Position numbers and translations under genes: made by a program
From: a virus
Length of the DNA: 59,281 bases
Reading direction: 5' to 3' (one strand)
IMG/VR virus record: IMGVR_UViG_3300025070_000034
Span: 1 to 59,281 of that record
In this document: positions 4,741-50,700 of the stretch, piece after piece
Numbering within the stretch: the first letter of the stretch is position 1
Layout: every line of letters begins with the position of its first letter
Notes under the pieces: model-generated
What the model was told of the DNA's origin: nothing
What the model saw: the letters and a program-made list of their open reading frames with translations, nothing else
Databases searched by the model: none

Positions 4741-5202
4741 TTACTCTACTAATGTGCCGTGCTCACGACGAATCTCTTTCAGTGCTTCGAGATTCATATC
4801 CTTAGTGCCTCCATCATAGGCATGAGCATAACCCTCTTCGATCATTTGCTCGTTGAGCGACACTGACTCGTCCCCAATGTATAACCAGCCAAGAAGACGC
4901 CCATATTTGCCAACCCCACCAACAAGTTCAGTCCTAACAGACAACTCATCATCACCAGCGATAGTCGATTCCAGTTTCTCTTTGAGCCAGTTGGTTGCGT
5001 CGATTCCAAGTGCTTTCTCCTCTAGGTTTCGCGTCCTCTTTTCTGGCGTATCAACGCCTGCAACTCTAACTCTTTCTTTCTTGTATAGATCAAACCCGAG
5101 GTCGATAGTAACATCAATAGTATCACCATCAAGGACACGGTTGATCTCCGTCACTCGGAAGTTGTAGCAGCTCTTTCTGCTCGGTGGTGTCATTGCGCCC
5201 AT
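4741..5202 (-). CDS. SNase-family thermonuclease
   Basis: This is a staphylococcal-nuclease-type endonuclease that would hydrolyse DNA or RNA with Ca2+. All key residues can be aligned: DGDT (25-28), R46 and E54 in RVAGVDTPE, and R102 in KYGRLLGWLY. These correspond to R35, E43 and R87 of the staphylococcal enzyme. At 153 aa it is a complete single domain. There is no signal peptide, so it should act in the host cytoplasm, perhaps in host nucleic acid breakdown (inference). The start used overlaps the preceding gene by 74 nt. A second ATG (MTPPSRK, 5193) and a possible internal start closer to the fold mean the N-terminus is uncertain. It is the last gene of the petE/petF cassette before the late adhesin promoter. 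Confidence 0.88.
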   Translation of the reverse strand: MGAMTPPSRKSCYNFRVTEINRVLDGDTIDVTIDLGFDLYKKERVRVAGVDTPEKRTRNLEEKALGIDATNWLKEKLESTIAGDDELSVRTELVGGVGKYGRLLGWLYIGDESVSLNEQMIEEGYAHAYDGGTKDMNLEALKEIRREHGTLVE

Positions 5203-5955: not shown

Positions 5956-6246
5956 TCATAGATTTTCTTCTTGTTCGGTTAAAATTACGCAATCGCTAGT
6001 AGGATATGCCACACAAGTGAGAACCCACCCGTCTTCAAGTTGATCATCATCGAGGAAAGATTGCTCTTCATTATCTACGGTGCCAGAGACGAGTTTGCCA
6101 GCGCACGCTGAACAAGCCCCTGCTTTACACGAAGAAGGTAAATCAACACCTGCTTCTTCTGCCGCTTCGAGAATGTATTGGTCTGCCTCGCATTGAATGA
6201 CAGCTTCGGTGCCGTCAGGAGACTGGAGAGTAACATTGTATGTCAT
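5956..6246 (-). CDS. petF: Ferredoxin, plant-type [2Fe-2S]
   Basis: This is a one-electron carrier that takes electrons from photosystem I and passes them to partners such as FNR, phycobilin reductases or ribonucleotide metabolism in infected cyanobacteria. The 96-aa protein has the four cluster cysteines C40, C45, C48 and C78 (C-x4-C-x2-C-x29-C), the canonical plant-type spacing, in [12 protein letters not shown] and LTCVAYP. The ATG at 6246 ([12 protein letters not shown]) is chosen because it starts exactly where the domain begins; an upstream TTG frame would overlap petE. Only 2 nt separate it from the petE stop, so the two are co-transcribed and probably translationally coupled. Similar ferredoxins are known auxiliary metabolic genes of cyanophages. 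Confidence 0.95.
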
Positions 6247-6248
6247 AA

Positions 6249-6572
6249 TTAATTTACGTGAATAATACCTGTCATGCCTGCTCCTTGATGAGGACCACAA
6301 AAGAAATTGTAATCTCCAGCATCAGCAAACAAAATGTCTTGAGATTCTCCAGGAGCAAACATTAAAGATTCTCTGGAAAGATCTGCACGACCCTCAACAA
6401 TAATGTTGTGAGGAGGCAACATGTCATTTATAAAATGTACAGTATCGCCTGCATCAATTGTAACATCGGATGGATCAAAAATCAAGTTCCCGTTTGAACC
6501 CATTTTAATGTCAACTGCCCATACTGGCGCAGCAAAAAACATCACAGTAAGAAGTGTAATAAAAAACTTCAT
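6249..6572 (-). CDS. petE: Plastocyanin (lumenal blue copper protein)
   Basis: Plastocyanin carries electrons from cytochrome b6f to photosystem I in the thylakoid lumen. The 107-aa precursor has a Sec signal peptide ([19 protein letters not shown], cleavage likely after A19), so export to the lumen is expected. Copper ligands are H55 ([10 protein letters not shown]), C92, H95 and M100 in CGPHQGAGM, the plastocyanin spacing C-x2-H-x4-M. The mature form is about 88 aa, slightly shorter than typical cyanobacterial plastocyanin (about 97-99). I chose the ATG at 6572 over a TTG two codons upstream. It is followed directly by petF. The island has a host-type promoter at 7159-7187, and a weak TATACT (6606-6611) also precedes the gene without a clear -35. 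Confidence 0.95.
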
Positions 6573-27277: not shown

Positions 27278-30200
27278 TTACGAGCGAACTAATGTCGAGT
27301 ATTCAACAGATTTGATGCGGTAGGTTGCTCCACCATTACCAGTTATATTTTCTCCACCCAAAACTGCCTGAGCCGCTGCACCAGAACCAGTGGTATCACC
27401 ACCAGTATTTGTAAATGTAATCGTTGGGTGTAGATTGTAACTATTGTCCACTGTTTGATCAATTCCGTAACCTCCATTTGTGATGGTTATGGAATCTACT
27501 CGGTCACCAGATGTTGACATTACAGCAGTACCAGTCGCTTGAATGTCGCCAGTACTTTCAATAACAATATTTGGAACTGCGGTATAGTTTGTTCCGTTAT
27601 TTACAATAACCATATCAACAACTGTACTGTTACTTGAGAACTCATACAGATATCCATTTACACCAATATTGACATTATTTGTATTATAAGGAACAATATC
27701 CTTCAATACTAATTTTGATGTAGTAATATCCCAAGATACTACCGTTCCTTGAATACCTGAGATGGCACCAGTTACAATTTCATTTGTACTATAATTTTGA
27801 CCATTTCCATTAGCAGAATCTAAAGTAAGTGTCAAAAGAATGGGGTGTTCAACACCATCACTCAATCCACCTGCAGCAGTAATTGTGGCATATTTGAATG
27901 GTATATCTGCGTCTTTGATATTATCTCCAACCTGAAGTAGTGTGGTATTTTGTCCACCTTGTGTTTCTTCGATACCATATAACGAATCATAAATGCCGCC
28001 ATCTAGATTGATTTGACTTGCATAATCTGTAGCAGTATTAATTAAATCTGCAATACCATCTCCTAGGAATGTTCCTGGATTTAATGGATCTTCGTTCTCA
28101 TCATTATCTTCAAATGCCTTATCTACAATTGATCCAATAGGTACTGTTAAAGTAGATATGTTACTGCCAACTGCATCAATAATTGTATGTGGAAGAACAC
28201 CTGTTCCACTACTATTTGCAACACCAGCATCAAACTGAACAATAGCATCAGTCGTTGAAGGAATTCCAGCATCAATAAATGCAAGTTCGTCAACTTCAAA
28301 AGTAACTAAAAGTTCCCTGGTACTAGGATCCCAATCATATACTTTAGCAATCTTACTAGTAGCATTCTCAACCCTACGAATTACTCTATCACCAACATTA
28401 AACTGATAGTTGGAATCTCCATTAGCATCATTCTGCCCATCATCTAATATAACTCTTTGGTCATATTTAAAATTAACACCTCTAGTAATTCCAGTAAATC
28501 TACCTCTACTCTTGGAAGTATATGAAATAGTTTCCTTATCAATAATAAGAGAACCAGATCCTGGATATGCATCTGTAGAAGTAACATATACCGTAGTATC
28601 ACTAGGTCCAAGTGCTTTAGCCAGACCTGTCAAGTAAATATCAGAAGAATTGAATGCCTGACGAGATCTAGTTTTACGCTTAAGATTTACAAGTCTAGTG
28701 AAGACAATATTTGGAGGAGATGTATATCCTTTGCCAGGATCAGTAATATCAATTCCAGTAATTGCACCTTGACTGATAACTGCTTTTGCCTTTGCGCCAA
28801 GTCCACCACCACCAGTCACAAGAATGTATGGTTCTGTCTGATAGAATTCGCCACCATCAACAATATTAATTGACGTGACTTTACCTAGAGTATCAATTGA
28901 TGCTGCACCTTCAGCATCTTGTCCACCACCACCTTCAAAAATAAGGTTTGGTGGTGTTGCATAACTTCTACCTTCATTTAGCAATGATAAACCAGTAACA
29001 GTTTGAGTGACAGGAGTTGCTGTAGCACCACTTCCTTCACCTCCAAGAATAACTGCTTTTGCAGTACCAAAGAAGTTATCACCATTTCGAGTCATCTTAA
29101 TATATGAAACGGTGCCATCATCATTAAGAACAACATCACCTTCTGCTTCCGTTGGGAACACTGCAACCTGCTCAGGAACAGCATCACCTTCAAATATAGG
29201 TGACCCATAGTACTGAGGACCAATCACATATGGATAAACTGGATTCCCACTACCATCTTCGGTCATAAAATATGCATAAGTACCGTTCGGATATTCGGGA
29301 GTAACAACATACTTACCGTTATATTCGTCAAGATTACCTACACCAGAATCATAGATATAATCCTGAGTCAAATCACCAAGAATATATCCTTCATTGACAA
29401 GACGAGATCCATAACCAGAATTTGAATATGAGAAAATATAAGCAACACGAGGTGCATTTACAGGAATAGTGATACGAATTTCTCTTGTCGTCGCACTAGA
29501 AAATCCTCCCAGATATGTGGCATATGGTGTTAGAACTCCATCCAAATAATATTCAACTGAACCTTCACCATCATATAGGTATGAAGTTGTTCCGATATCA
29601 AGTGAACTTCCTGTATTATGCCAACCATCTTCGGTCAAGGAGAACATCAAGAAGTTGCCATTAGCAGTATTGCTGGCATCATCTTGATTAAAGATATAAG
29701 TTTTTCCTCTTTTCAGATTCAGTAACTCTTGCTCTTGACCATCAAAATAAAATTTAGAATTTGAAACAGTAACAGCATACGTTATTGTACTAGCAGTTAC
29801 AACCTCCTCTCTAGTACCAGGAAGTTCAGTAGTAGTTTTAAACCTATACGAACTAGTCATTCTGCCAGGGGTTCTGCCAGTAACATATCCAAATGGTCCG
29901 TAAATGGGATATCCATCAAAGGACATACCAAGAACTTTAGAGTGACCGTCTACATGCCTAGATCTATCAATAGTGCTTGGATCATTTGAATCAGTTTGAT
30001 AGTAATCCTTGTAAAAGTAATTATTTTCATGCTCTTCTTCTTCCTCAATCTCGGGATCGAGATACATATATCCTTCATCACCTTCGTATCCCGACATATA
30101 GCGGTGAAACTTGCAGTAATAATAGATACGATTATTCTCATCCTCATTCATAATGAATAAGGGTGTAAACTCGTTTTCATAATCAGTAGCAGGTGCAGCA

Positions 30201-31495
30201 GATGCACCTGTACTATTGTAATATAGAGTACCGCCGTTTAGTGTACCATCTTGAGTGGTACTAAGTTGCATTGGATGTCCTTGAAGATGGTGAGCGGACG
30301 GTTGATTTGATGGATCGGATTGATCCCAAATAATTAAGTAATTTCTTTGAACCTTAATACTTTCTGGGGAAAGGTAATAGACTCCAGGAATGAAATCACC
30401 AAACTCATGAGAATCAACACCAAAATCAATATAGAAGAGACCATTGGGGAATAGAACTGGATCACCAGCGACTCTAAATTGGAATCCAGTCGAACCTAGA
30501 ATAAAATCAGTTGCTTCAAATGATCCTATAACCTGCCTTAAATAAATTCTAACAATTTGGTTCTGAGCATTCCTGACAATCTTTGCAATTTCTCCCGAAG
30601 CAGTTCCTCCTACTTCATTTATTGTCCTGCCTACTTCAATTGGATTTAAAGTTTCGTCTATGTTATCAACATAAAGCATGATATTGTCATACTCTACCTT
30701 AATATACCAAACGAACTGCTCTAAAGATCCCCACTGGAATACTCCATTAGCACTATTGAACTCATCAATTGTCTTACTAGTTTGATAATAATGAGTAGTG
30801 CCATCAAGAACTACATCATTTGCATTAGTTCCTTTAACATAATCATATTTTACAGTATCAATAGAAAAGTTTGTTGGGGCATTACCAGAAGTACCAAATT
30901 CTGGAGTATGCAACAAACCACCGTTTGCCAGAATTCCCAAAACCTTGTTATTTTGAAAAGTTCTATCTCCCTGAAAAGGGACATCTTTACCACCGCGATA
31001 TACAAAAACTTGATCAAAAGATCTATCTACAATATTTCCAGAACCTCCAGGTTCTGACTCTTCAAATATCCAAGTAGGTTTGGGATGATTGTCAGACTCA
31101 ATACGGAGTCTATCGTTTTTAACAGGAGGTGTACCTGAGGTCTGAAAGGTGCCTCTTGTTAATGCATTTGGATGGTCTTGCCAGATTCTATTGACGTCAA
31201 AAGAATCTAAAACATTTGGTGTTTCAGATGTAGGAACAATCTTAAGTCTTAAAGGATCATATCCGCTACCTCTTTCAAGAACACGGACATGGATAATTTT
31301 ACCCGAATCAGCATCGATGATCGGATATAGTAATGCTTCTTGAGCGGGGGTGCCACAACCATCGATTGTTAATCTTGGAGGGTCGGTAGGATCATATCCA
31401 GTTCCACCACTAATTAATTCTACAGCGCGAACACCGAAAACTTCATCGAAGATCGGATTAATTATCGCTCCTGATCCAGGTACGGTTCTTGTCAT
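27278..31495 (-). CDS. Fibre/baseplate-associated protein with cupredoxin-like and YHYH-like modules (1405 aa)
   Basis: Modules read in order: GxGY repeats at ~28-90; a cupredoxin-like domain at ~380-475, with possible copper ligands H407 (QGHPMQL), C461, H464 and M467 ([10 protein letters not shown]); a YHYH-type first half at ~512-540 ([12 protein letters not shown]); a second, ligand-less cupredoxin-like region at ~575-700; the YHYH-type second half at ~720-760 ([21 protein letters not shown]); then many GxGY repeats ([36 protein letters not shown]). The last ~500 residues are beta-rich. The order suggests domain insertion. Metal binding is inference from ligand spacing. It follows the 406-aa fibre gene by 3 nt. 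Confidence 0.78.
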
Positions 31496-31498
31496 TTA

Positions 31499-32719
31499 TC
31501 AGTTTACGACGGTAAAGGTGCCATTCATCCCAGAGTGCAGAGTACATTGATAGTACAATGTATTAGGTGCATCATGAGGAATTGTCCAATAAAGAACGTT
31601 AGTTATACTTCCACTCTGACCAGTGGTATACGGTGTGCCTGTCAGTCCTTGAGTAGATTGAATCCTAAAGGGATGCCCACCACCTTCAACACTATTATCG
31701 AAGGCATATGTAAATCCTCTATGAACATAAACATTAGGATTTTGAGCAAGTCCATCAAATCCAGGTCCTGCTATTGTATAGTAACTGGAATTGTTTCCTG
31801 GAGGCGCTCCAAGTTCATACCAAATCATCGGACTACGAGTTGGTATCCAGTTAGAACCATTCCAATAGAGCATATCGCCCTGAGTAAGACCAGCAGTTTC
31901 AGTATCAGTTAATGCTGCCAGAGTAGTGGTAAGAGTACCACTAAAGTTTACCGTTACGGTATCGCCAGAAACTGCTGTAGTAATATTAGTACCACCAGCA
32001 ATAGTAAGTGTATCTGCTTGACTGTTTGCTGTAGTAGTTCCTGAATCTGCATTAACAGTCTGGAAAACATTAATGGCACTTACACCTGCTTGATCATCTC
32101 CAGGAACCCAATTAGATCCATCCCACTTAAGAATTTGATTTGTTGTTGGTGCTGCTGTTGTAACATCAACATTACTCAAGTCATCAATACTTGAATACTC
32201 AGTAAGAAGTTTTGCTCTAACATCACCAAGACCACCCTCAGTGATATTGATGTTTACATAAGGATCATCAGTACCATCTACGGTAAAGAAATAACCAGGA
32301 TAGGATGCTGCAGCAGGAGCAGCTGCTAAGGATGCATACTCATTCTTATATTTTACACTAGTAGGAATGTCAACAGTAGCACCAAATGTCGAAGTGACCG
32401 AGTTAGATGCTAGTGTAATTAGACCAGTTCCATTTGCAGCAATTGGAATATTGCCATCACTAGAGGAGATAATTGAGTTACCATTTACATCCAAAGCAGA
32501 TGTAAGATTACTATAATCTGAAGGAAGAAAGGTAGATCCGTTATAACGAAGAACTTGCCCCGATATGGGGTTCAATGTATTAACAGTTAAACTTACCCCA
32601 TTACCTAAAGCGGTATATAGTTCGTTAAAATTATCATTAATTTTATCACCACCAATACGGAGGGTATCCCCCGTATTGTCATTAGCAGAAGCTCCAAGGT
32701 TTAGTGCTTGTTTAGCCAT
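31499..32719 (-). CDS. Tail fibre protein with C-terminal cupredoxin-like domain (406 aa)
   Basis: The N-terminus (LGASANDNTGDTLRIGGDKI, then NFNELYTALG) is a common phage fibre attachment motif. The middle has repeated phrases LRYNGSTFLPSD, LKWDGSNWVPGD and LYWNGSNWIPTR, typical of fibre shafts. Residues ~298-406 look like a single cupredoxin fold ending in LYYQCTLHSGMNGTFTVV. H349 (GGGHPFRI), C392, H395 and M398 would supply a full type-1 copper site, with C-x2-H-x2-M instead of plastocyanin's C-x2-H-x4-M. There is no signal peptide, as expected for a virion protein. Late promoter at 32739-32746. Confidence 0.82.
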   Translation of the reverse strand: MAKQALNLGASANDNTGDTLRIGGDKINDNFNELYTALGNGVSLTVNTLNPISGQVLRYNGSTFLPSDYSNLTSALDVNGNSIISSSDGNIPIAANGTGLITLASNSVTSTFGATVDIPTSVKYKNEYASLAAAPAAASYPGYFFTVDGTDDPYVNINITEGGLGDVRAKLLTEYSSIDDLSNVDVTTAAPTTNQILKWDGSNWVPGDDQAGVSAINVFQTVNADSGTTTANSQADTLTIAGGTNITTAVSGDTVTVNFSGTLTTTLAALTDTETAGLTQGDMLYWNGSNWIPTRSPMIWYELGAPPGNNSSYYTIAGPGFDGLAQNPNVYVHRGFTYAFDNSVEGGGHPFRIQSTQGLTGTPYTTGQSGSITNVLYWTIPHDAPNTLYYQCTLHSGMNGTFTVVN

Positions 32720-32738: not shown

Positions 32739-32746
32739 TATTTATG
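32739..32746 (-). promoter_or_regulatory. Late promoter ahead of the 406-aa fibre
   Basis: The minus strand reads CATAAATA, 20 nt before the ATG at 32719. It overlaps the stop codon region of the 6375-aa gene. Confidence 0.75.
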
Positions 32747-35700
32747 CGATCTCTGGATCAACTAGTTCTTCACCATAATCTGCGAGATTTGGTGCGGTCC
32801 AATCATCGGGAACTTCACTCTCAATAACGATAACTGGATTTTGATATCCAGAACCATACTCGTTCATTTGAACCGTAGAGATGCCAACCAATGCGCGGAT
32901 ATTGCCATCGAAACCAGAGATAGAGTCGATTCTAACTGTAGGTCTGCTTGTGTAACCAGAACCTCCAGAAGTGACTTGGACAGTGTTAATAAATCCGCTC
33001 GTAAGTGCAGATTGCCCGATGGCACCTTGACCAAAGACTGACCCAAGATAATCGAAGGTGATGAGAGAGTTAGACGATTCAATAACCGCTACCTCACGAT
33101 CTTCAGTTTCTCCCTCAATCTCGATGAAGTCTCCTGCTTCGATTGGTGGAACTACCTCAGCAGCATCAACGTCTGCTTCAGAACCAACATAAGAGAATGC
33201 GACAAATGTGGAATCTACGCGAGGAATTTCGGAGAAGATGATTCGTGAACCAACAATCTCAAAACCAACTCCAGGTTCCTGAACAACACCATTGAGAGAA
33301 ACAATAATATTATTTTCGGGTCTAATCACAGTAGATTGAACACCTTCTGTAAGCGTGAGTGAATAGAATACTTCATTACGCTTGAGGTTGAATGACTGGC
33401 GTAAGGAATCAAATTCAAACGAGATATCATCCAACTGTCTCATCTTACCAATATAGAATCCAGTAAATGAGGACCCAAGTTCTGGTGCCTCAGCGAATTG
33501 AATTTGGTCGGAGAACGCTGTATATGCGTTAGTTGCTCCAGGAGGTTGAAGAATACCATTGACGAAAATCATCATGTGTCCTTCTGGATCGGGCAGATAT
33601 GGAGTTCCATTTTCAATGGTGAGAGAGAAGTTAGTTTGTGTACCATCAAATCCTTTGGATGCTCTCTTCACGCGAGCTTTAAGATCTACGACATCCGTGA
33701 TGACTGCTTTATAAGAAGAAGACCCGATAATAGCATCCTTGCTCGTAAATGCTCCTGCGATATCTGTAAGATATATTCTCTTACTCAATCCTGCTGCTCT
33801 GACGTCTTGGACGCGAGCAGATGCTGCACCATCAACCGTAACCTTTGTATTGATTGTGGCGAAACCTTGAGGGAAAATATCAACTCCATAATCTCCGATG
33901 TAGTCACCATTTTGGAACTCACCTTGAATCATGGTAATGTAGATATAGTTGTTATCTAGATCTACTTCAGTGATAACACCATATACACTGTTATCTTGAA
34001 GATTATTAACAACCTTATAGATCCTATTTCCAACAATGAATACATTTGAAGTTGAAATAACAGAGACACCCAATCTAATGTATCCATCAGACGCGATGCG
34101 ATCACCAACCGATACCTGAAGACCAGAAACCTGAGATACATCAATGTACTTTCTAGACGATGCTGGATAGACTACTGAGTTTTTCTCAAAAGTCCCTACC
34201 AAACTCTCAGTGTCAACTGTCAGGAGACCTCCACTATTGGAAGTAACAGATGCTTCTGTTTTGATGAATGAAGTAGGTTCAGCAACTGCTCCAGAAGTAT
34301 AACCAAGGAATTGAATATCCTCAACAAAGTCTCCCTGAAGATCGATGATATGAATGCGATCTTCGATGGCACTAATTTGTGCAGTTGTTGAGTTCTCCCC
34401 ACCAACGATAAAGTCTGTAACCGCCCAAGGACCAGCAGTAACTTCAACATCGAGATACTTAAAGTTCTCATCCTCATAGAATCCGTAAACTACACCAGTG
34501 ATACTAGGAGCACCCTGCTTAGCAACAGTTTCATTCATGGTGAATGGACCATCAGTAATATCTCCGTCTATACGGAATCTTCTGTAAACTTTAACGATCA
34601 GACCCTCGTTAGTAGTGAGATTAGCAAGTTCAGCATTTGAATCAGAACTCAATCCATAGAAATAATCAGAGGCATTTAGTCCTCCAGTAATTCCTACAGG
34701 AATATCTCTAACACCATAGTTTTTAGAACCGAAAGTTACAGCATTATATTGAGTGAGATTTGTATAGTATGAATCATTAATAAACTGATTCTTAATTGTA
34801 CTAGTACCATAACGAATCAATCTAGCGATAGATTCATTGCTGTAGTTACCATCAGGAAGAGCAGCTGCTGATGTTGGATCCTGGTAGAACGAACCTACAA
34901 CAGCAAGAGGAGAAGGGACAACAAGTTCATTAGAAATTGAAGCAATCATGTACTCAGTCAGAAGATCCAGTGCATATGTCTTAATGTTATATTCGGTATT
35001 TGAATAGAACAACTTGCCAGATCCAGCAGTATAAGGATCAAGGAAACCAGAGTTGAGTTTAATACCCCAAACATAGAAACCTTGATTTCCTGAAGCAGCG
35101 ATAGCTGAACGATTATAGATAGCGAAGTCTCCTTGAAGATTGTCGATACCAAAACCGAAGGTGATAGTTGCATATACACGGAACCAATCACCACCAACAG
35201 GTGTTACTCCATATTCATTAAGAGTAATGCCAGGACTTGTAAACACTGTTCCTACGTCAACCTGACCTGTGGAAAGGTTGACATTGAAGTTAATATTCTT
35301 CGACTGATTATCCAAAGAAAGTTTAAAGTTGAGACTATCAAGTTCTGCTTTCTTAAAGAATGCCGACAATGTAAATGACTGCTGCTCATTAATACCACCA
35401 AATCCAGTATCGAATGTTTCAGTGCCACTATCAAATGTTACCGTTGAGTTATCAAAGGTTTCAAATGAAGTTAGGTTGAAATCTCTAGTTAGTGAGTGTA
35501 CTCCAGTACCTGTGGCATAGAGTTTTTCAGCAGTTTGTGTTCCATCAGGAGCACTGGTAGCATTATTGTAATAACCTACTAAGTTAGAGGTATAATTAGA
35601 TGCATTTAGATTTTCTGGATTAGTCCAGAGATTTGCACTGCTAACTTCTCCTGTGACTGGCGAACTGATTGCCCTTGCTTGAGCAAGAATCTCAACATTA

Positions 35701-38700
35701 GTGACACTGTTATACCAATCAAAGGAATTAGAAACGCCAGGGAAAGTACCAAATGGTGATATTGTAGCAGGAGCAGCATCACCATAAGCAGTTACAGAGA
35801 CCGTGTTAGGTCCATTATCTTGAATAGTATTACCTTGACATAATAGAAGTTCAGTTTCAGTAACGTCTGCTGCAACAAATGGTCTTGTAGGAAGCGCGAA
35901 CAGTTTTTCTCCAATTGCCGTAGTTCCTTTCGGATAAACAGCAACGCTAGACAATCTCCAGTCGGAAATGTTTCCAGCGGAATATTCAGTAGTAGTCGTA
36001 CTCGAACCTACGAGGATTGCAGTAGAACCATAGTTAGTTGCTACAGTTCCACTACCTTGAAGAATACCGTCGATATAGATTGAAGTTTGGTTAGCACCCG
36101 TTCCTTCTCTTACGACAGCAACATGATACCATCTACCACCAGAAACATTGATAGTAGTGTTAGTGAGATTAACAAAGTTAGCACTACTTCCACCGTAGAA
36201 ACCGATATTAGAAGAACCTGCTCCCACGAAGAATCCAAAGTCATTAGTGGTTGACCCAGATACGTAGAAGTTTGTATTTGTGTCAACACGACGGATCCAT
36301 CCTTCAAGAGTAAAGTTGCTAGTTCCAAGTGCAATACCAGCAGTTTGCAAGTAGTCGCCAGTTCCATCAAATACTACAGATCCATATGGTGCAGCAATAG
36401 TTGCAGTTGCAGTACTACTTCCGCCCGTCAGAGTATTAGCAACTGCCCAAGCAGTAGATGAGAAAGTACCAACATACATTGACTGATTGTCTTTATCAAA
36501 CTCAAGTACTTGAGCAGTGGTGCCATTACTAGATGTTACGGTTTCTCCTACTGTGAAGTCTCCAACAATGTTAGAAAGTGAGATTTCGTAAGCAACAATA
36601 GTATTTGCAGAACTTGTATCTGTTGTGATACTATCTGCTGCAATATTGTTTGCAGTTTCTTCAAGGAACGAATCATATATCCAAGAACCAGAACCAAACT
36701 GACTATCAATCTGTGCTCCAATTTCATCCTTATAGTACTTAAGATTGAAGTAGAAGTTCTTGACGGCATTTCTAACTGAATTACCTGAAGGCGCAAGACC
36801 CTTGGTAACAATATCAACTAGATCGCGAAGTCTCCAAACTGCTTGATCGATATCTGTAGGAATTTCAGTATCTCTATATGCAGTGTTATCACTGAAAATA
36901 GCAGAATATTGATTTCCCGTTACAGTTGCACCTGAATCATATAGAAGATTTCTTATTGCTTTTTCACCAAGTGTTCTAATCTGCTCAAAGGCAAATACTG
37001 TAGGAAGAAGTTCTTCTTCTACATGATTCAGTTCTCCATTAGCAGTTAAGTACAGATTCATGTTATCAACTGTACTGTTATTACCACCTGTCTGTAGGTC
37101 GGAGATGATTGCAGTAATCAGTAACTTAATATCACGCTCACACTTAGCAGTGTCATATGTGTATGCTACTTGATTTGAGTTATCGACTTGATATGTCAAA
37201 TATGCTGCAGTAAGACCTGTAATTTCTTCTGCAATATATTCGCGGTTGAAGTACAGTCTGTCACCAGCAATATTGAAGTCTTCGCTAGTTGGAGCGATGA
37301 TATCATTGATAGTGCTAACTAATGTATCGATAGCGGATTGGACATTTGCACAGTTGCCTGCGTCATTAGTAATACCCCAATCACCAACGATAATATTGTC
37401 AGTATTGTCATAAGTTAGATCGCCTGTAACTGCTTGCTTAGCGTAGAATCCAAGTCTCTCATGAGCATATACCGACTGCCATACTTGCAGACGAATATGT
37501 CTAAGTTCATCGTTTTCACCAATATAGAAGTTAGCAGCCTGAACAGTGAAGAAGTTTCCTCCATCGTAAATATCTTTCGCCATTCCTGATAAGATCAGAC
37601 CTAAGTCAGTCTTACAGCGAAGAGTTCCATCGGTGCTGCCACCAGCAGCGTTTCTAGGCATATCAACAGCAAGATCTGGATACCTAGTGAGCATATCATG
37701 TGCTGCTTTATCAACAATAACTGCAGCATTTGAATTGATAAGATTTGAAGCATCACGGAATCTTCCACGAGCAGAAACGTCAATCCTATTGGTATATAAG
37801 ATATCCGAAGCAGCACTATGATATGTGGTGGTAAACGGAACTTCGAGGAATGCATTTACAGTAGCGCCAACAAATTCATAATTGGTTTCTACCTTAGTGA
37901 TAGTTGCCAAGTGATCTACAGGAGTACCAAGATCTGCTTGCTCAAGGGTATCTGTAAGGATATCCAGAAGGTTGCCAATCGTGGAATATACATCAGCACA
38001 ATCACCTGTACTGTAATCAAGAACTGTAACCGCATTAGAAGATGCACTTACAAATGTATGACCATACTGCTGCTCAGTTGGAGATGCTCCGACATTGACA
38101 GTGAAAGTATCGGTTGTAACCGCAGTGATTGCAAGAACCTGATTATATGCTCTAGTATCACTCACACGAGGATGAACCAATTCTCTCTCATTACCATCAC
38201 TGGCACATGTGAATGTCAATGACTCTGCAGCAATAGCGATTGTATTTGCTGTCGTTAATCCATGACCGCCTGATGTCATAACCATATCACCAGTAGCAGC
38301 ATCATACGAAATTGCTGATGGTTGAATTGTGGTAAAGGATGATGTTGAAGAATCAGTAATTGTGGTATCAGTGATTTGTCTTACGCCATGACTGCCAGAA
38401 ACAGACCAGAGAGTATTATTGATGATATATTGAAGAATATCTTTGACTTTATCGTAAGCCCAGACAGTTTCTGTAACTTCTGTATCAACATGACTAATTG
38501 TCACAGGATTAACAGTTCTATTAACATACAATGCCGAAGCATCCCAGATGTGACTATTACATCCGTTACGGAGATCCTCAATCAAAGCAGTAAGGATATC
38601 GCGAACATCATCTTCACAATTTACGTTACCACCAGGAATTACGAGTGATGGATACTGTTGAGTCAGTAAGTAAACTGCTTCCTTAGCAACGAATTCTTTA

Positions 38701-41700
38701 TTAGATTCGATTAAGTTGGCAGCATCATAATATCGTTGTGACTTACCTGCGAATCCAGCAGGAAGATTTGCGGAATTTTCATTCCAGTTCTTGAGAATGG
38801 CATCATTGTTGAAGTCTTCGTTGTCTGTAAACGACTCACCACCAGACCAATCCTCAATGTATGTTTGAGTGTCAGCACCTTCAAAGTGAAGTAGTAACTT
38901 AGTATTAGCATCACCCTGGAAGATTCCTGTAGGGGCAGTAAATGTCGTCTGATAGCGCGAAGTGTTAGATACTCTGAACTCATCGATATGACCAGCGAAA
39001 CCGTCTCCAAAGGCATAGGAGGCACCTATGATGATTGGTTTAGTGGATCCGTAGTTGCCACCATCAGCAAAATCTCCACCATCCTGTGTTCCATTAACAA
39101 ATAACTTAGTTGTAGCAGCATTTCTTGAGATAGCGACATGATACCAAGTATCTACTTCAAGAGTTGCCGTTCCAGTGATTGTAGTAGAACCGTTAACTCT
39201 GTAGTTAAGATTTGTTCCTACAAGTAGCAGTTCTGAAGAAACTTCAGTGGCAGTCGCTCTAAAATCAAAGATTTGCTGAGTTCCTGTAACGCTTGAAGGA
39301 CGAATCCAACATTCGATTGTAAATGCACCCGTACCAAAACCAAATTCAGTAGAAGTTGGGATAGACAGATAATCTCCAGTACCGTCAAGCAGTAGAGACG
39401 TCAATCCATAATGACTTTGATCGGTATCTAATTGAGCATTGTTCGCAAAAGTAACCTGATGGTAATCTTCGCCAGTAGAAAGAGTTCTACCTACTTTACC
39501 CAGATAGATTGTGGAAAGTGCTTGATTGTATCCAATAACCTCACCTTTAGTATCTTGAGTTCTAATGACTTGTCCGAGTTGGAAGAATCCAGACCCAACT
39601 CTACCATCAAAAGCAAGTTTCTTGGTGACCATATCCTCAGCAGAGTTGAAACTGCCTGTTACATTGCCATATCCAAGTTTGTAGTTGCGAATAACTTCGT
39701 TTTCTTGGAATGTACCTGTAGCATTGTCATAAGGGATAACTAAATTGCTAATAAACTCAGTTCCAGGGAACTTGGCATCAAAGTCTGTAGTGTTATCGGT
39801 AAAATCGACAATATTTACTTGAGACTCGGAAATATTATCAAGAATAACATTAGGATATGAAGCAGACGTCAATCTGTTGAACAATAGACCAAAGAAAGAT
39901 GATCCATCAGAAATATTAACCTGTTCAATAAACTCGCTTGTGACGGGATCTTGATATGCAGATGTTGAGGTAATTCTAGCAACAACACCTGACTGAGATC
40001 CAATAATGACATCATCGAGTTGAATATCGAATAGACCAGGTTTTGACTGATATGTACCTACGGTCTTACTCAATGCCAATTCATTAGTAATATTAATGTC
40101 AGTACCATATACAGGCAGATCTTCTTGGTGAGAAGTTGCAGTTGTTCCTAATTGTCCTCTCTGTACAGTCAGCGTAGTTGAATCGGGTCCAACTGTAACA
40201 TCGGATACAGTAACAATCTCTGCTCCCAGTTGATAGTTAGCACCTATAGTAAATACTCCTTCTGGAACTGCAGTATCATAGAGTGCAGAAGAAGCAATAA
40301 TTTCAATAGAAGTTGTTCCTGCACCAATAGTGTATCTTAAATCTGCAAGAGGAACAGCGTCCCCTGTTTCCAGGTTAACTTCTTCAACTATAGCAATTTT
40401 ACCCGTCAGATTCTTAATCTGTTCATTGAAACTAAACAGATTGAGATTGGATATTGGAGTAATTTCTGTGAGAGTTGCAGTAAATCCAGTTGCACCAACA
40501 CTGATCAGTTCGTTGATATTGAATCCACTAACACTAGTGACTGCAATAGTTGCTGATGTAGTACCACCTGTGATTGTGATAACTTCGGAGGATGCATATC
40601 CAACACCAACACTGTTGATACTTGCCTGTGTTACAGCACCAGAAGCAACAGTAATATTGACAGTAAGTCCTGTACCGACACCACTAGAAGTTGTAGAGAC
40701 ATTTGTATAAGTTCCATCAGTATAACCAGCACCACCAGTTAGTGTGGCATTATCAAGTGCAGTAACAATACCAACATTACCTTCGGCAATAAAACCGAAG
40801 ATATCATCACCAACAACACTAGTAACAGTAAGTCTTGATCCAGACTGTGTTCCTAGGACAGTGTTATTAGTGCTTGGGAAAATACCACTATTATTAGTGA
40901 TTGTAAATTTATAAACCTGAATTGGTTGAATAGTTACATTTACATACTTGACACTAGCAGGAGGTTGAGGTGGTTCGGCAAAGACAATAGAATCGTTTTG
41001 AACTTCAAATGCTGTATCTGGAGTTTGTACAACACCATTCAAAATGATCATCAACTGATTTGCGTTTGCAACAACGTTTGATCCATCAATTTGTAGTGGG
41101 AATGCAATTCTCTCACCATCAAATAGATTAGAAATATCGTCAAGTCTTTGAACAACTGATGTTAAGATGTTCTCCGAAGAAGTCAGTCGTTTCTGACGGA
41201 ACAATACCTCAGTATTATCGAACGCAGTATATACAGGTTCAACCAGAGCAAAACTTTGAATATTTGGAACAGTTGCTTGTCTTGCAAGTTCAACTGATTT
41301 TGTCAGTTGGAAGAATGTTTCCTTATTAGGAACAAATCCATACTCATTTAGATTAAGTTCACCAAAAACTTTGAATGATGCAGGGTGAACATTCTTGATA
41401 AGGATATCTTTCCAATCATTGATTGAAATTGCAGACTTAACTGCATAAGAGAAGTCCTGATAATAATAGGAGTCTTGGATCTTCTGAATGATCTCAGAGG
41501 GTTTACCAACATCATCAATAAATTGACCAGAGGTTTCTGTAATAGATCCAACATCCAGAACACCAGTAGCGATATTCAAGGAACTAATAGTACCAGAAGA
41601 TTTAGAAATAACACCTGTTACAGATTCACCGATGTTGAAGTCTCCAGTGTAATCAACGATTTTTACAATTCTAGGTCCAACTTGCCAACCGTTATTTGTA

Positions 41701-44700
41701 GAGACAAATCCAAATGCAGTAGCATTTTCAAAGGAACTGCCTTGATAAACTTGCTCACCCTCAAGGAAAGTTGATGTAATAACATTTGCTGTTGCTGCAC
41801 CACCGAAAGATGTTGTAAGAACTTGCTGACGACCTGTACCAGCATTAGTAAATGCTAATGCATCACCAAGTGCTGCGTTTGCTGGAGTAATCGCAAATTT
41901 TAACTGATCATCTTCAAGAGAATTTGCCGTTCCAGCAATTGCATAATAAGTAGTAAGACCGTTCAATCTACCAACTGCACCAGCAGCGATTGGGAAATCT
42001 GCACCATCGCCAGTATCTACTACATTAAGAGTAATTTCTGAACCTTGTGCAATACCATGTGGGAAGGAGAACTGTAAGAGTCCCAAATCTAGGTTAACAA
42101 CATAGTTAAAGGAAGATTTCAGTTCTACAGCTGGTGTAGACGAATAACCAAGACCAGGATCTTTAACTTCAATCCTATCCAAACGACCATTCTTAATAGT
42201 GGATTGGGCAATAGCACCACTACCGCCACCACCAGTAATAATAACTGCAGGTGCCTGAGAATAACCAGAACCAGGATCAGTGACTGTAACACTATCCAAA
42301 ATACTAGTAGATGTTAACTGTGCATTGATCGGGAATGTAATTTCAGGACGTAATGTATAGTCATGGGGATAATCATAACCAAAGTTATTATTTTTCAGTT
42401 TTTTGATCTTACCAACACTAGAACCTACAGTAAAGATAGATGCCGCTGTTCCAAATGGGGGGATGACTACAGTAACTTCAGCACCAGAACCAGTTAGACC
42501 AGCACCAAGAATGCCTGGTATAGAATCAATGTCAACAGATGCTGTGGTATATCCTTTTCCTGCTGATGTAACAAGAACGCTTTGAACTTGTCCAGGAATT
42601 GCACCGCCTTCGCTATCAGTTCCATCAGCAACTGTAATTGTGACGAAACCACCTTCACCATCACCAGCAATAGGAACGCCTGTATATTGTCCTACAGCAT
42701 ATTCAGTACCAGGTTCGTTGATGGTAACTCTTTCAATCTGTCTTGTAGATTGAATGCTGGAAACAATCGGAAGTCTTGTGTAGAATCCACCAGGATTAAC
42801 AATACGAATGCTATCGATCGAACCAACTGCTCTTCTAGAACTAGTTGAATAAGATACTCTAGAGACGTCAGCATTACCTTCGGGTTCATTTACTAGAGGG
42901 AATTTGATCTGATCTGCTCCTCTAGTAATAGTTGCACCATCAATACCACTAACTTGGAATGTTCCTCTATATGGAGATCCAACAACATCAAGATAACTAC
43001 CTTGAATGATAGGTGAATCGTTGTCACCAACCCTAGAGGGATCGAAGTAGTACGAAATGTTTGTTACAATATCTTCATCAACTTTGAACTTAACGGTAGG
43101 TGTAGTGGCACCTTCGCCAGTTACTCCAGGAATTCCAACTCTTTCAATAGAGTTGAATGAATACTCAAGTTTGTAAAGAGGATCTTTTGCGAAAGATAAA
43201 TTACCACCAACCATTGAAGAGTGACTAAGGTCAAACAAATACTGGTGACCATAATACATTTTCAAAACAGGTGATTTGATGTAGATGCTAACATCACTAG
43301 CACTAGTAGCAGGACTTGTAATTGCTGCCTGTGGAAGTTTGTATGTGAACTCTAGAGGACTAATTACAGTATCTACAGGGAATGAACCATCATATTCATC
43401 ATAAACAGTTCCACCAACAGTTTCAGATGGATTTCCATCCAAGTTCAACATAGATCCAGGAGTCAAATAGTGTCTAGTACCTGTGATGACATAGACTTCA
43501 TCACTATTTGCTACAGCAGTAACTCTAAGAATCTTTGTTAGATTAGCAACTAACGTAATCTTAAGTACACCAGTGAGATTAGTAATAGTTGCTGTGCTGT
43601 ATGCAGCATTATAACTAATGTCTCCACCGTTTATAGTAACTACAGATCCTACAATGAATGTAGAAGATCCTGAGATTTCATCAATTCTAACTGCATAATC
43701 ATCGTCGGAATATGGTTTGAACTGAGCAAAGGAATCTAGATTCTGACCACCTGCTGCATTGAAAGTACCATCCAAGTTATACTTGTCGAGATCGATAGTA
43801 AAAGTTCCAGGAGTAGTATTATCTACTTGAGCAAATGTATATGAATCGATTTGGTTGATATCAAGAGGAATTGGTCCAACAATACCATAGGTATCTTGCT
43901 CACTAAATTGAGATGTGGAAAGTTGACCCGCATTTAAGTCATTAGTCCAAGAATTGTTATTAATTGCAAGATATACTTTATTGTTTTCATTATCAACTTT
44001 TGTAATATAACCGCTATTGACAAAAGCTCCACTAGAGTCATTCAAAGTTAACTTTGTACCGACAGTGAATCTAAACGCCTGATTAATAGTTAAAATTTGA
44101 ACATTGTCAATTTTAACGGTGTCAGTAATTTTAAAGTAATACCTATCCTTAACAACTGCACTAATAATCAGTTTCTGTGATCCAGGAGAAGGAATCGTGG
44201 CAGTTCTGGTACTCCAAATATCTTTAGTATATGTCAATGTTTCGGTATCTTCTACCATTACAGTTGATGCGTCATCAAAATCTAAAGATTGAAGACCTAA
44301 AGAACCTAAAGCGAATCCTGTATTACCAATAGTTAAGGCACTACCTGTTACAGGAGTAACTGCAGTACGAACATACCCAAGTTGAGTAGTTAGTTGAATA
44401 CCTTGATCACCAATTCTTGCGGCATCAGCATCTTTATCAACTTTTACACCCCAACCAGAAAAATCAATATAATCATATACATCATTGTATGCACTGAACC
44501 ATGCTGTATCAGTCCAACTATAACTTAAAGCAAATGCACCATTAGTAGGTAGAACAGATACGTCAGAAGGAACTGTAGGAACAATTGCACGATTTCTCAG
44601 TTTGAGATTATCTACAAAATACTGACCTTGCTCATCTTTTCTGTAACTTCCAGGTGTTCCATCTCTACCAGCAATATTACCGATATAAAGTTTCTTGGAT

Positions 44701-47700
44701 GTGAAGGATGTATCAGCAACAGTAGCAGTAATGACACTAATACCATTTACATAAACTGTAAATACATTACCTTCCTTCTTCAATCCAATAAATTGCCAAG
44801 TATCATCAGCAAACATTGTAGACAGCGTAGACTGTACTGCACCGCTAGAAGAATTGATAGATGTGGTGTTGTTAGTTACAACCAACTCCAATTTTCCAGA
44901 TGGACCTGCTGAAGTGCGATCATAATACAACCAGAGACCACCAGTTGCATCGGTAGCATCACCAATAGCAACTAAAGTTTGTTGATCTTGATTATGTGTA
45001 TCAGTAGAAGCAGAATCCTGATATAACATGAACTCTAAAGTCCAGTTTTCATTAAGTGAATTGCCTAAGGTGTTGTTGGGGAATTCAATATATGCATTTT
45101 CCCAATTAGCAGGAGTTGCAATATCTCTACCATAAAGTTTTGCAAGTCCACCATCTAAATGCAGTGACTGTGTTGCATCATTACCAACAAACGTCGGGGT
45201 ATAGTTACCAAAGGTATCTGTAGTAGCACCACCAGTAAACTCAAGTAAAAATTCGTTTCTGTTCCATGAAGTTTGACCAAAGACATATACATCACCAGAG
45301 TTGTCCACATCCATAGCATTTGCTGTAATGCCAACAACTCTATTCTCATTAAACTCATTAGTTGTATGATTTTTGACTACACCATCATATCCAATCTTAA
45401 CTGTATCTACAGTTTTAAGACCAGTGGTATTATCTACTCTATTGAAAGCAATATTTAAATCGCCAAAAATATCGATAGCACATTGTCCAATAGCATTTAC
45501 ATCTCTACCTGGAGCAAGATACCTGTAGTTCCAAACAAAATCACCAGTAACATCAACTTTACCAACCCAAACACTGTCTCTAGTGACATTATCACTCTTT
45601 GCTCTAAGTGTGGCATTGATATAAAGTTCATTAAATTCATCAATAGCAAGACTACTATCTAAGAATGAATATCCAGCATTACTATACTCTTTAATAAAGT
45701 CAATCTCAATTGCATTGACTCCTACAAGTGCTTTACCAAAGGCAACATTAACATTGTTATCATTGATAGTATTAGAAGTTTCTAAGGTGAAGTAAATATC
45801 ATCACCACTTACAACAATATCGGTAAGTTTTTCAGAATCATCTACAGAAGCAATTTTTCTCTTAATTGCAAAACTACCAGCAGTATCAACTAAAGCAATA
45901 AATGCATCAAAAGGACTTCCTGAGTTAGTATTAGTAAATCCTCCAATTACATATCGAGTATCTGAGTATTTCTTAATACATGTAATATTATCAGCTCTAG
46001 TAGAACCAGAGATTCCTGAATATCCTTTTTGGAACTGAAGTGATGCACTCAATCCATTGGCAGATTGTGTATACTTCACTAAAATGATATCTGGATTATA
46101 TGCATCCAAAACTAAGATATTTGGACGGTTGACACCAACTACCCAGATATCATCGCCATCAACATAAAGTTTCTGGAACTCTGCATATTCGGTTCCAGAA
46201 GTAAGTTCTAACGTTTTTTCCCATTCTTTAACACCTGTCGTGGAAAGTTTGGAAACAAATGCAACACTGTTGCCACTAGAATCTAAAGTTTTACCACAGA
46301 TGAAAATTTCTTTACCACTGTTTACAAATACATCATTAACTTTTACATTCTCATTGTTTTCAATTTTAGAAACAATATATTCTGCTTTTTTGAATACTTG
46401 AGGATGGCTAGTAATAACTCTAGGATTAGCACTGTATCCAGAACCAGAATTAAGAATATTTACCGTATCAATCGATCCGACACTAGTAACAATTGCTTCA
46501 AGATCTCCCGAAACGCCATCTCCATCAATAATGAGAGAAGGAGGAATATCTTCGTTATATCCAGAACCAGATTGTGTAATTACAATCTCTTCAATACCTT
46601 TATATTGGCGAACTACAAATGATTTATTTGTGTTATCCATTATAGGAGTATAATCTACAAAAACGGAATCACCGAGTTGTAAGTTATGTGGAACACTAGT
46701 AGTTAGTACTCCGAAATTATCACCACTAACATTCTCAAAGGTATATCCAGAAACTGATTCTCCCTTAATTCTGGAAATTCGTGCAGAAGCACCATCGCCA
46801 CCAGTATCTGTATTATCAAAGATAAGTCTATCGTCTACTTGATAGTTGATACCAGAATTTTCAACAACAAATCCTGTAATTGAAGCATCCTCAAATTTAG
46901 TAATAGTTTCAACTTCAATATCAACCTTAGAGTCCAGTTTTACTGTTGGGAAGTAATCAAACAGTTGTAATGGAGATTCTTCAAAGATTTGATCTGGATC
47001 TGCAATTTCGTCTGCAGTGATAACACCATCTCTATTTTCGTCTTCTACGTCAAAGGTTAGAAGATCTCCATTTTCCAATGTCAATCCATTAGTAGATGCA
47101 TTTGGTGCTCTCTCAACATCAATATCTACATTCTCATAGGGATCGCGATAACGAACAACACCAACAGGAATATTTTGCTGAACAGCACTCGTAGAAAGAT
47201 TCCAGGTATCAACAACCGAGTTAAAACTTGGTCCGAGAATATATGGGAATACAGGATTGCCTGCCTCTGTAGCATCAATAGTTACAAAGTAGCAATATCT
47301 ACCGTTAGGATACTCTGGAGTCTTACAGAATCTACCATTGTATTGATCGAGATCTCCTAAACCGAAAGTATACTCATAATCTTCTACAAACTTACCTGCA
47401 ATCTCATCTGATAGGAGAGGTCCAGCAGTTCTGGTAGGAGTTGGATTAGTAATCTCGTCATAAACTAAATTTGTCTTTAATCTGAAAGACGTCGCCAATC
47501 TAGAAACTGAAGAAGCCTGATTAGTAGGATCTGAATATCCATAAGGTCCATAAATTGGGTTGCCATCAAATGCCCAACCAATAATAGGAGAGTGTGCTAA
47601 CTGATCATCCTGCTCAAGAATTTGTCCATTTACATTGACAAATAAGTTATCACCTAAAATATATCTAAGTCGTTGAGGATTGGAAAGGTGTGCATATTCT

Positions 47701-50700
47701 CCACCATACTGATTATTGAATCCCTCAAATACAGATCCCTTAGCGGCATCAACAGTTGTCGTCTCTTGTAAGTTATAAGTCCATTGGAATACATTTGCTG
47801 CAAAAGTAGCACCTTGACCAACAGAGTTCAGGTTGATAATAGTCGTACCTTGACTATATCCAATACCTCTATTGATAATTTCAATCCTAGTAACTTTACC
47901 AGCATTTTCTCCGTCAACATCAATAGTTGCTCTAGCAACAGCACCAAAACCATCTCCTTGGATAGTTACCTCTGGTGCTGTAGTATACCCAGAACCTGCA
48001 GAAATGATAGCAATTGAAATGATACGACCATCGTTGACAATTGCCTGTGCAACGGCACCAGTACCAGAACTAAGGACAATAGAAGGATTAGATGTATAGG
48101 ATTCTCCACCATCAGTGATAGTGACTGATTGAATTGGTCCTCTAACCGCTGCAGTACCCTCAGCACCAGATCCCCCACCACCAACAACCGTAATAGATGG
48201 TTGTGATGTATATCCAGTTCCTCCAGAGTTAACAAGAATACTAGAAACTACACCCTTTGTGATAATTGCTGTTGCTGACGCTCCAGAACCGCCTCCACCA
48301 ACAATAGATACCAATGGAGAGGAAGTATACCCAGAACCGCCCTCAGTTACTGTAACCCCACTAATAGAACCATTAACAGTCGCAGTTGCTGCTGCTCCAG
48401 TCCCTTCACCACCACTAATAGTAATTGCTGGTGGGAATGCAGCATCATATCCAGATCCTGCATTAGTGATATCAACTGATGTTACAGAACCAAAGATTTT
48501 AGTGACATCAGACTTATAAGACCAAATAGAGACACCATTAACCCATGTTCCAATAGGACCAGGTACAATTAAGTTTTTGGTTGAGATTGTAACAGGAACG
48601 ATTGGGAATCTATTTAATTTACGTTGGTTGCCAGGTAGTAACGCAGATCCAGGGAAAGGTCCAATATTATAGTTTGGAATACCTGTAGATGCAATATAGG
48701 TATTTGTGGTATTGAAGAATGTATTCTGAATATTAGTTGTATAAGGACTAATTGCATTATTAACTGCAGAACTATCCGACTTACCTTTGTTCAAATCAAT
48801 AGAGACAAGGATATTACCTTGAGGAACTACTGTTGCAGGTTGAGGAAGTTGATACTGGAATACAGTAGTACTATCTCTGGATGTTACAAGGAAAGATCCG
48901 TTATAAACGATTGGATTTGCACCATAAATCGTAACCTGGTCTCCGACTAACAAACCATGAGGATTGTTACAAGTCACAGTGGCAGATTGATTATTAATTC
49001 CACCAAAAGTGATTGATCCTACTTCGATCAACTTTTTAACATTATACAACCAAGTTGTGAGTTCTGGACCTGATCCAGTACCACCCAATTTAGAGATTAA
49101 TAGTTTATCACCTGGTAAGTAATAAGAACCAGTATCGGTGAGTGTTGTTTGTTGAGCATCAACAATACCAACAATATTCAATACTACTTCTTGAGCAGTC
49201 CCTTTATTAATGAATACGTTAAAGTTGGACGATACCTGAGTAGCAGAGTCCCAATCTTCTACAACACCGTTAACAGAACGAGTACACTCAATAAACTGGT
49301 TTAATGATTTTTCTTTATATTGAACAACTTCAGAACCAACACCTGTTGAAATTACAAATTCGCCGTTTCTTTCTGGCCAACCAATAGTAGAGTCAACAGT
49401 GATGATACCTTCTGTAGTATTAAGAGGTTCTGCAAGTTTTGTTTTATATGGAACTACGAATGTACCTTGAATCGTTTCTTCTGAAAGTGCAAGTTCGTAG
49501 ATTGTATCTTGGGCAGTTTGAATTGAGATAAAGTTCTCAATCAATGCCGTTGCTTGTAAAATATTTGGATCTGAGATATCAGCAACTTGCTCAAGAAGAC
49601 CATCTTGAATATTTTCAGGAAGACCACTGACCAAAGTTGCACGCAAAACAGTATCAACAGACCAGGTTGCTGCAGAAGGTTTGATGATTTGATCTTTAGG
49701 ATATGAAACTGTTACAGTTTCTCCATAAAGAAGTTTGAACAGATATGCAATACTAAAAGATGTGCCTTTTGCAGAATAAAAGTCTTTAATAGTCTTAATC
49801 GATGTTCGTACATCAATTTTAGTATAATCAAGTGCAGGAACATCAGGTAAGAACTGTTCAGTATACTTGTCAAGTAATCTCTTAACAAACAGTGCATCTA
49901 GACACTTCACAGGGGCATCAACAGATCCTTCTGCTGCTACAGTGCTATTAGAGAATACTGCATTACCATCTTGCGTATATTGAGTAATACCTGAAGCGGC
50001 TCTGGCACAACCAAGGAATTGTGCTTTAGTATATTCGGTTCCTGATTTAAGAACAGAGAAACCTGTAACTTCCTGTAGTCCAACTTCTGCAGACGCTTTG
50101 GCATCAACAGGTTTTTGAATTACAATTTGAGGAGGATTATCTGCACTATAACCAGAACCAAAGTTGGTGATATTGATATCAGTGATTTGTCCATTGAAGA
50201 TTGCTGCTACTGCAGTAGCACCTGTTCCCCCAATGTAAGTACCAACATCATTTTGGCGATTATCTACAATATACACAGATGGAACGTCTGTGTATCCGCT
50301 ACCGCCAAACAAAAGTTCGACAGAAATAACTCTACCATCTCCATCAACTATGGTTTCGAGAACTTGTGCTCCAACAGGATCAATAACAGCAATTCTGGGT
50401 ACAGTTTCATAACCTTGACCAGCATTTAAAATATTTACAGCAGTAATTTCACCATCGGTCAATACAGTTGTAAATGATGCTTTAATACCATCAGTTCCAG
50501 TGGGTTCGTCAATGTACACCAAAGGAGGAGTAGTATATCCTTGACCAGGATTAGTAATACTAATAGTACCACTAATAGAACCGTTAGAAATGGTCGGAGC
50601 GGCAACTGTAGCACCACCAGGTTGTTCAAAAGTGATTCTAGGAGTAAATGTGTATCCACTACCAGAACTAACAATGTCAATAGCACTAACCTCTCCGTTA

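Follow-up and report, generated by a model that had tools for sequence, protein, structure and literature searches.

What does the C-terminal end of a virion protein of a marine cyanophage do with four residues that are spaced like the ligands of a blue copper site? The question arises from an open reading frame in IMG/VR virus record IMGVR_UViG_3300025070_000034, of which positions 1 to 59,281 (59,281 nucleotides) make up the stretch of DNA analysed here, referred to as the window. A preliminary description had called the product a virion fibre protein; the reading frame, its length of 406 residues and the residue numbers H349, C392, H395 and M398 given there are all recovered on re-translation.

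31499-32719, minus strand: gp9 homologue, T4-like cyanophage baseplate wedge/tail-fibre connector, 406 residues

The protein with the putative copper site is a gp9 connector

We find that phrog_677 (baseplate wedge tail fiber protein connector) matches this protein over residues 1-405 with an E-value of 1.9e-195, and that the Pfam family T4_gp9_10_N (PF07880) scores above its cut-off at the N-terminus (E = 5.9e-10). The gp9 proteins of Syn33 and S-RIM12 are 92.9% identical to it, and its gene is flanked by a 6375-residue reading frame and by the gene of a 1405-residue baseplate wedge subunit. These two family matches, together with the position between structural reading frames, identify the product at the sequence level as a gp9 connector and not a tail fibre proper, and the fibre label is replaced here. 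The whole protein has matches in 344 phage records and its C-terminal domain alone in 338, the latter being nearly all from cyanophages. A single-chain model of full-length gp9 is poor before residue ~270 and good only in the C-terminal ~130 residues. The frame directly upstream of gp9 is a single 19-kb frame of 6375 residues (32742-51869, minus strand), the S-RIM12 counterpart of which is annotated as a structural protein.

The gp9 C-terminus is predicted to adopt a cupredoxin fold

31502-31828, minus strand: predicted C-terminal cupredoxin domain, residues 298-406

An AF2 model of the last 109 residues of gp9, computed from an alignment with 63 relatives, has a mean pLDDT of 96.1 and a pTM of 0.88, with a Greek-key β-sandwich of the cupredoxin superfamily extending over the whole predicted domain. 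The top matches to this model in a Foldseek search of the PDB are the cupredoxin domain of a Hyphomicrobium nitrite reductase, rusticyanin, AcoP and amicyanin (E from 1e-4 to about 1e-3, probability about 1). VIA-align gives its best Z-score of 9.9 to both 2dv6 (rmsd 2.8 Å) and rusticyanin 2cal (2.4 Å) over 94 residues, followed by auracyanin, laccases and other copper proteins; a family missing from that listing was not counted as evidence. Scores of Z near 8-10 are middling when taken alone, and the PDB match list is almost uniformly made up of copper cupredoxins. The cupredoxin layout that had been proposed for the last ~110 residues is thus borne out, both by structure prediction and by comparison with known cupredoxins. 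In BFVD, the same domain recurs in many cyanophage tail and structural proteins.

Domain libraries respond to the family only faintly. The window domain has no match to Pfam PF00127 (plastocyanin/azurin family), and 18 of 64 relatives match it weakly (best E 8e-5); nor does the window domain match any NCBIfam model at E 0.1, with weak matches to amicyanin TIGR02657 in 14 of the 64 (best E 2e-4) and to halocyanin in 12. The gp9 domain of the window falls below every Pfam and NCBIfam cut-off for cupredoxins, and full-text searches of open-licence literature turned up no paper that reports a cupredoxin in phage tails or baseplates, in cyanophages or in virions. The preliminary description had treated the family resemblance as known biology, a view that neither of these searches supports.

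Four putative ligands align with those of type-1 copper proteins

31673-31675, minus strand: predicted ligand His349, in GGGHPFRI
31544-31546, minus strand: predicted ligand Cys392
31535-31537, minus strand: predicted ligand His395
31526-31528, minus strand: predicted axial ligand Met398

All four residues are invariant in our alignments A1, A2 and A4, and they occur in the order and spacing of type-1 ligands, H349 followed by C392-x2-H395-x2-M398. A profile of 64 relatives (A2) finds 11 PDB sequences at E-values up to 1, and each of these is a plastocyanin, an amicyanin, an auracyanin, a copper nitrite reductase or a copper oxidase. The E-values run from 0.12, the best, to 1, and none is significant singly, so that the weight rests on the coherence of the set of matches and not on any one of them. 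In the alignments displayed, His395 and Met398 coincide with residues of solved blue copper proteins, Cys392 with the cysteine of plastocyanin and nitrite reductase, and His349 with the upstream histidine of plastocyanin 1kdi; the histidine and the Cys-His-Met of fern plastocyanin align with all four gp9 ligands. The gp9 loop reads CTLHSGM, against CTLHPWM in 9cck, a chain labelled as a copper-containing nitrite reductase.

The earlier claim of a complete four-ligand set therefore stands, with one correction to the spacing of the loop. The gp9 loop has the C-x2-H-x2-M form of amicyanin, the ligands of which are His53, Cys92, His95 and Met98 (PMC12723479), and not the C-x2-H-x4-M form of plastocyanin. 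The models are free of copper, and the ligand geometry is that suggested by the fold together with the sequence alignment.

A chance motif is ruled out by shuffling and by conservation of the four residues: the pattern H-x30..55-C-x2-H-x2-M occurs in two reading frames of the window, those of gp9 and of the next baseplate protein, whereas shuffling predicts 0.007 such frames per window and yields none in 20,000 shuffles of the gp9 frame. An intrachain disulfide at C392 is likewise ruled out, as this is the sole cysteine of the chain.

A second baseplate protein carries one intact and one ligand-less stretch

27278-31495, minus strand: 1405-residue baseplate wedge subunit, next gene to gp9 (phrog_708)
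30086-30385, minus strand: intact cupredoxin-like stretch of that protein, residues 371-470 (GHPM ...)
29396-29779, minus strand: ligand-less cupredoxin-like stretch, residues 573-700

The 1405-residue protein has matches to YHYH and, in addition, these two cupredoxin-like stretches. The intact one is found with an HMM i-E of 1.6e-12, or 8e-4 with profile A2, and its C-x2-H-x2-M is retained in relatives. The second, with an HMM i-E of 5e-17, has N, S, N and Y at the four ligand positions; the corresponding stretches of two other loci (L086 and L094) keep H, C, H and M, making this a concrete case of loss. The S-B05 fibre is another.

The ligands tend to be retained together or lost together

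The four ligands do not vary freely among gp9 homologues, a point on which the preliminary description had asked for an alignment. None of them changes across 29 gp9 representatives, drawn from 66 distinct IMG/VR sequences that had been gathered with a pattern requiring the ligands. The ligands are also kept in 73 distinct C-termini gathered by profile alone, where the two exceptions to the regular expression are an archaeal HPI and an unread base.

We also searched IMG/VR and GTDB genomes blind to the ligands, using a DNA pattern for P-x-D-A-P-x-T-L-Y-Y, which includes none of them, and accepting members by an HMM with the columns of the ligands and of the pattern masked out; this HMM removed, as false positives, 10 of the 181 matches listed. 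Among the 171 related domains then listed, 129 have all four ligands, 34 jointly lack the first His, the Cys and the second His, and 8 are mixed, 2 of these because the contig is cut. In the listed ligand-less domains the Cys is mostly replaced by Ser and the second His by Gln or Thr, while Met is still present in 35%, consistent with a weaker axial role of Met. The fold signature is kept in these same listed domains (R334 in 76%, G335 in 76%, Y338 in 82%, F340 in 79%, Y364 in 88% and G367 in 100%), which indicates that the cupredoxin fold can exist without the ligands and that not every relative needs copper in order to fold. A large ligand-less subfamily (FPFWIKT ... YYVSQNQTNLRG) occurs in long viral reading frames of IMG/VR, at loci L098, L101, L130, L135, L158, L168 and others like them.

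The alternative that best survives these data is that the cupredoxin fold has been reused purely as a structural or adhesive module, with the four residues kept for packing or surface and no metal in the virion. Assembly in the cytoplasm makes copper loading uncertain, and a fold that works without metal is found in the 34 listed relatives that keep the fold signature without ligands and, within the window itself, in the second copy of the 1405-residue protein. We nevertheless consider this reading unlikely, since all four residues are invariant in gp9 while many surrounding residues vary, and since the wider family keeps or loses the two His and the Cys almost always together, which packing alone would not predict. 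Judged from the sequences, the ligands mostly stay or disappear together. On a poorly supported tree of the domain (~100 residues), with 8-13 changes per residue on the best tree, only 1-3 independent pairs of co-loss are supported, a number that is not significant, and none runs in the opposite direction. Co-loss of the ligands thus appears as a strong pattern and not as a proven series of independent events, because the tree of so short a domain is too weakly resolved.

The model, the fold search, the profile alignment, the invariance in gp9 and the near all-or-none retention of the ligands together strongly support a predicted cupredoxin fold with a complete type-1 ligand set.

The domain behaves as an exchangeable end module

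Two cyanophage gp9 proteins do without the cupredoxin. That of S-CREM1 (L277:4001-5326) has a homologous N-terminus and a different C-terminal domain, which recurs in further structural proteins of cyanophages, among them the S-SCSM1 'long tail fiber proximal subunit', at its end; that of RN05-S (L278:4001-5332) also lacks it. In S-SCSM1 and P-SSM5 the cupredoxin domain is instead located near the N-terminus of longer proteins, and the S-SCSM1 protein is flagged in its record as a virion protein; mass spectrometry of S-SCSM1 virions detected 45 proteins (PMC9602691). Cellular relatives (L218, L224, L246 and L256), from Bacteroidota, a marine archaeon and an actinomycete, have the domain C-terminal to collagen repeats, and one flavobacterial relative has it after Lipoprotein_15 secreted repeats. 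No relative of the domain was found on plasmids at the sensitivity used. From these sequences, a module at the end of a fibre appears to be a recurring theme, though not the sole arrangement, and the gp9 cupredoxin is best read as a module that can be exchanged at the end of a trimeric, fibre-like protein of the virion.

The gp9 domain is independent of the phage plastocyanin

6249-6578, minus strand: plastocyanin (petE), a separate metabolic gene

The window does encode a genuine plastocyanin, as previously noted (Pfam Copper-bind, E = 5e-18), with matches in 401 phage records. Descent of the gp9 domain from this protein is rejected: hhalign of the two gives a weak probability of 10%, though the ligands align, the loop spacing differs, and the gp9 domain is present in P-SSM4 and P-RSM4, both of which lack petE (Table 3, PMC3037559), indicating that the two are independent. 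A ferredoxin (Fer2) reading frame (5956-6300, minus strand) lies beside the plastocyanin gene, and a homologue of SNase is found at 4741-5202.

A copper ion may stiffen the end of the connector

We favour, with a probability of roughly 0.6, the reading that the gp9 domain is an exchangeable end module with a complete type-1 site (H349, C392, H395 and M398) that binds one copper per chain, as suggested by its sequence and predicted structure; marine cyanophage particles may, on the same grounds, carry copper. Free copper is scarce in the cytoplasm, where virions assemble, so that the site could be unoccupied or contain a metal other than copper, and loading perhaps follows release. In the mechanism that we propose, gp9 would be assembled in the host cytoplasm and acquire copper there or after release; the copper would tie the strand bearing the upstream His to the C-terminal ligand loop, and the tied strand and loop would stiffen the end of the connector at its contact with a tail fibre or with the surface of the host. 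At one copper per chain, a virion would hold 18 if it has six gp9 trimers, as in T4.

A second alternative accepts the metal and gives it another job, with copper-loaded gp9 ends engaging a component of the outer membrane in the manner of the iron 'Trojan horse'. The domain does sit at the connector end, in a position where it is swapped for a module of other cyanophage structural proteins, but in S-SCSM1 and P-SSM5 it lies near the N-terminus, far from the fibre tip, and the role of gp9 in T4 is to anchor the long fibre, not to bind the host; even with the precedent of a published proposal for iron-loaded tail fibres (PMC11705849), we regard this role as quite improbable. That the site serves the virion in electron transfer or in redox sensing is highly improbable: type-1 sites of other proteins are mostly electron carriers and one flavobacterial relative joins the domain to Lipoprotein_15 secreted repeats, but no redox partner is evident in the baseplate, no path for electrons to or from a lone site on a structural protein suggests itself, and the domain is unrelated to the phage petE, being present in P-SSM4 and P-RSM4, which have none.

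Under the preferred reading, of one copper bound per gp9 chain, a metalloprotein site of the electron-transfer type would be built into the virions of widespread ocean myoviruses. The carriage of trace metals by viruses becomes concretely checkable, and the structure of phages is connected with the supply of copper. The analysis further delimits a so far unnamed family of cupredoxins, a fibre-end module of phages, bacteria and archaea, that includes natural ligand-free relatives for comparison. A far-reaching extension, which we consider rather improbable, is that the baseplates of most T4-like cyanophages in the sea hold tens of blue-copper sites, contributed by gp9 and the second wedge protein; their copper would come from seawater or the lysing host and be needed for fibre attachment or host contact. 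In that case, infection of Synechococcus and Prochlorococcus would be influenced by how much copper is available.

Comparison with known systems

The closest likeness of the predicted gp9 site is to the small type-1 cupredoxins amicyanin, plastocyanin, auracyanin and rusticyanin, with which it shares the predicted fold, one upstream His and a C-terminal Cys-His-Met loop. It differs from these soluble electron carriers, to which it is roughly 20% identical in structural alignment, in being part of a baseplate protein of a cytoplasm-assembled virion and in having a metal site that is predicted. The YHYH domain, a predicted Zn site in phage baseplate and tail proteins (PMC7824862), is comparable as a predicted metal domain of baseplate proteins and adjoins the cupredoxin-like stretches in the 1405-residue protein; it is a separate domain that has His/Asp ligands and is predicted to act as a hydrolase (PMC7824862). 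The HxH motifs of Alteromonas phage R22Y, for which the iron-loaded tail fibres were proposed (PMC11705849), share with it the notion of a marine phage that has metal in a tail protein, likewise from prediction, with a metal and ligands that differ from those of the gp9 site. T4 gp9 resembles the window protein in its N-terminal T4_gp9_10 domain, its position in the baseplate operon and its annotation. The sequence match between the two is limited to about the first 60 residues, and the cyanophage protein is longer, at 406 residues against 288 in T4, with the cupredoxin at its end.
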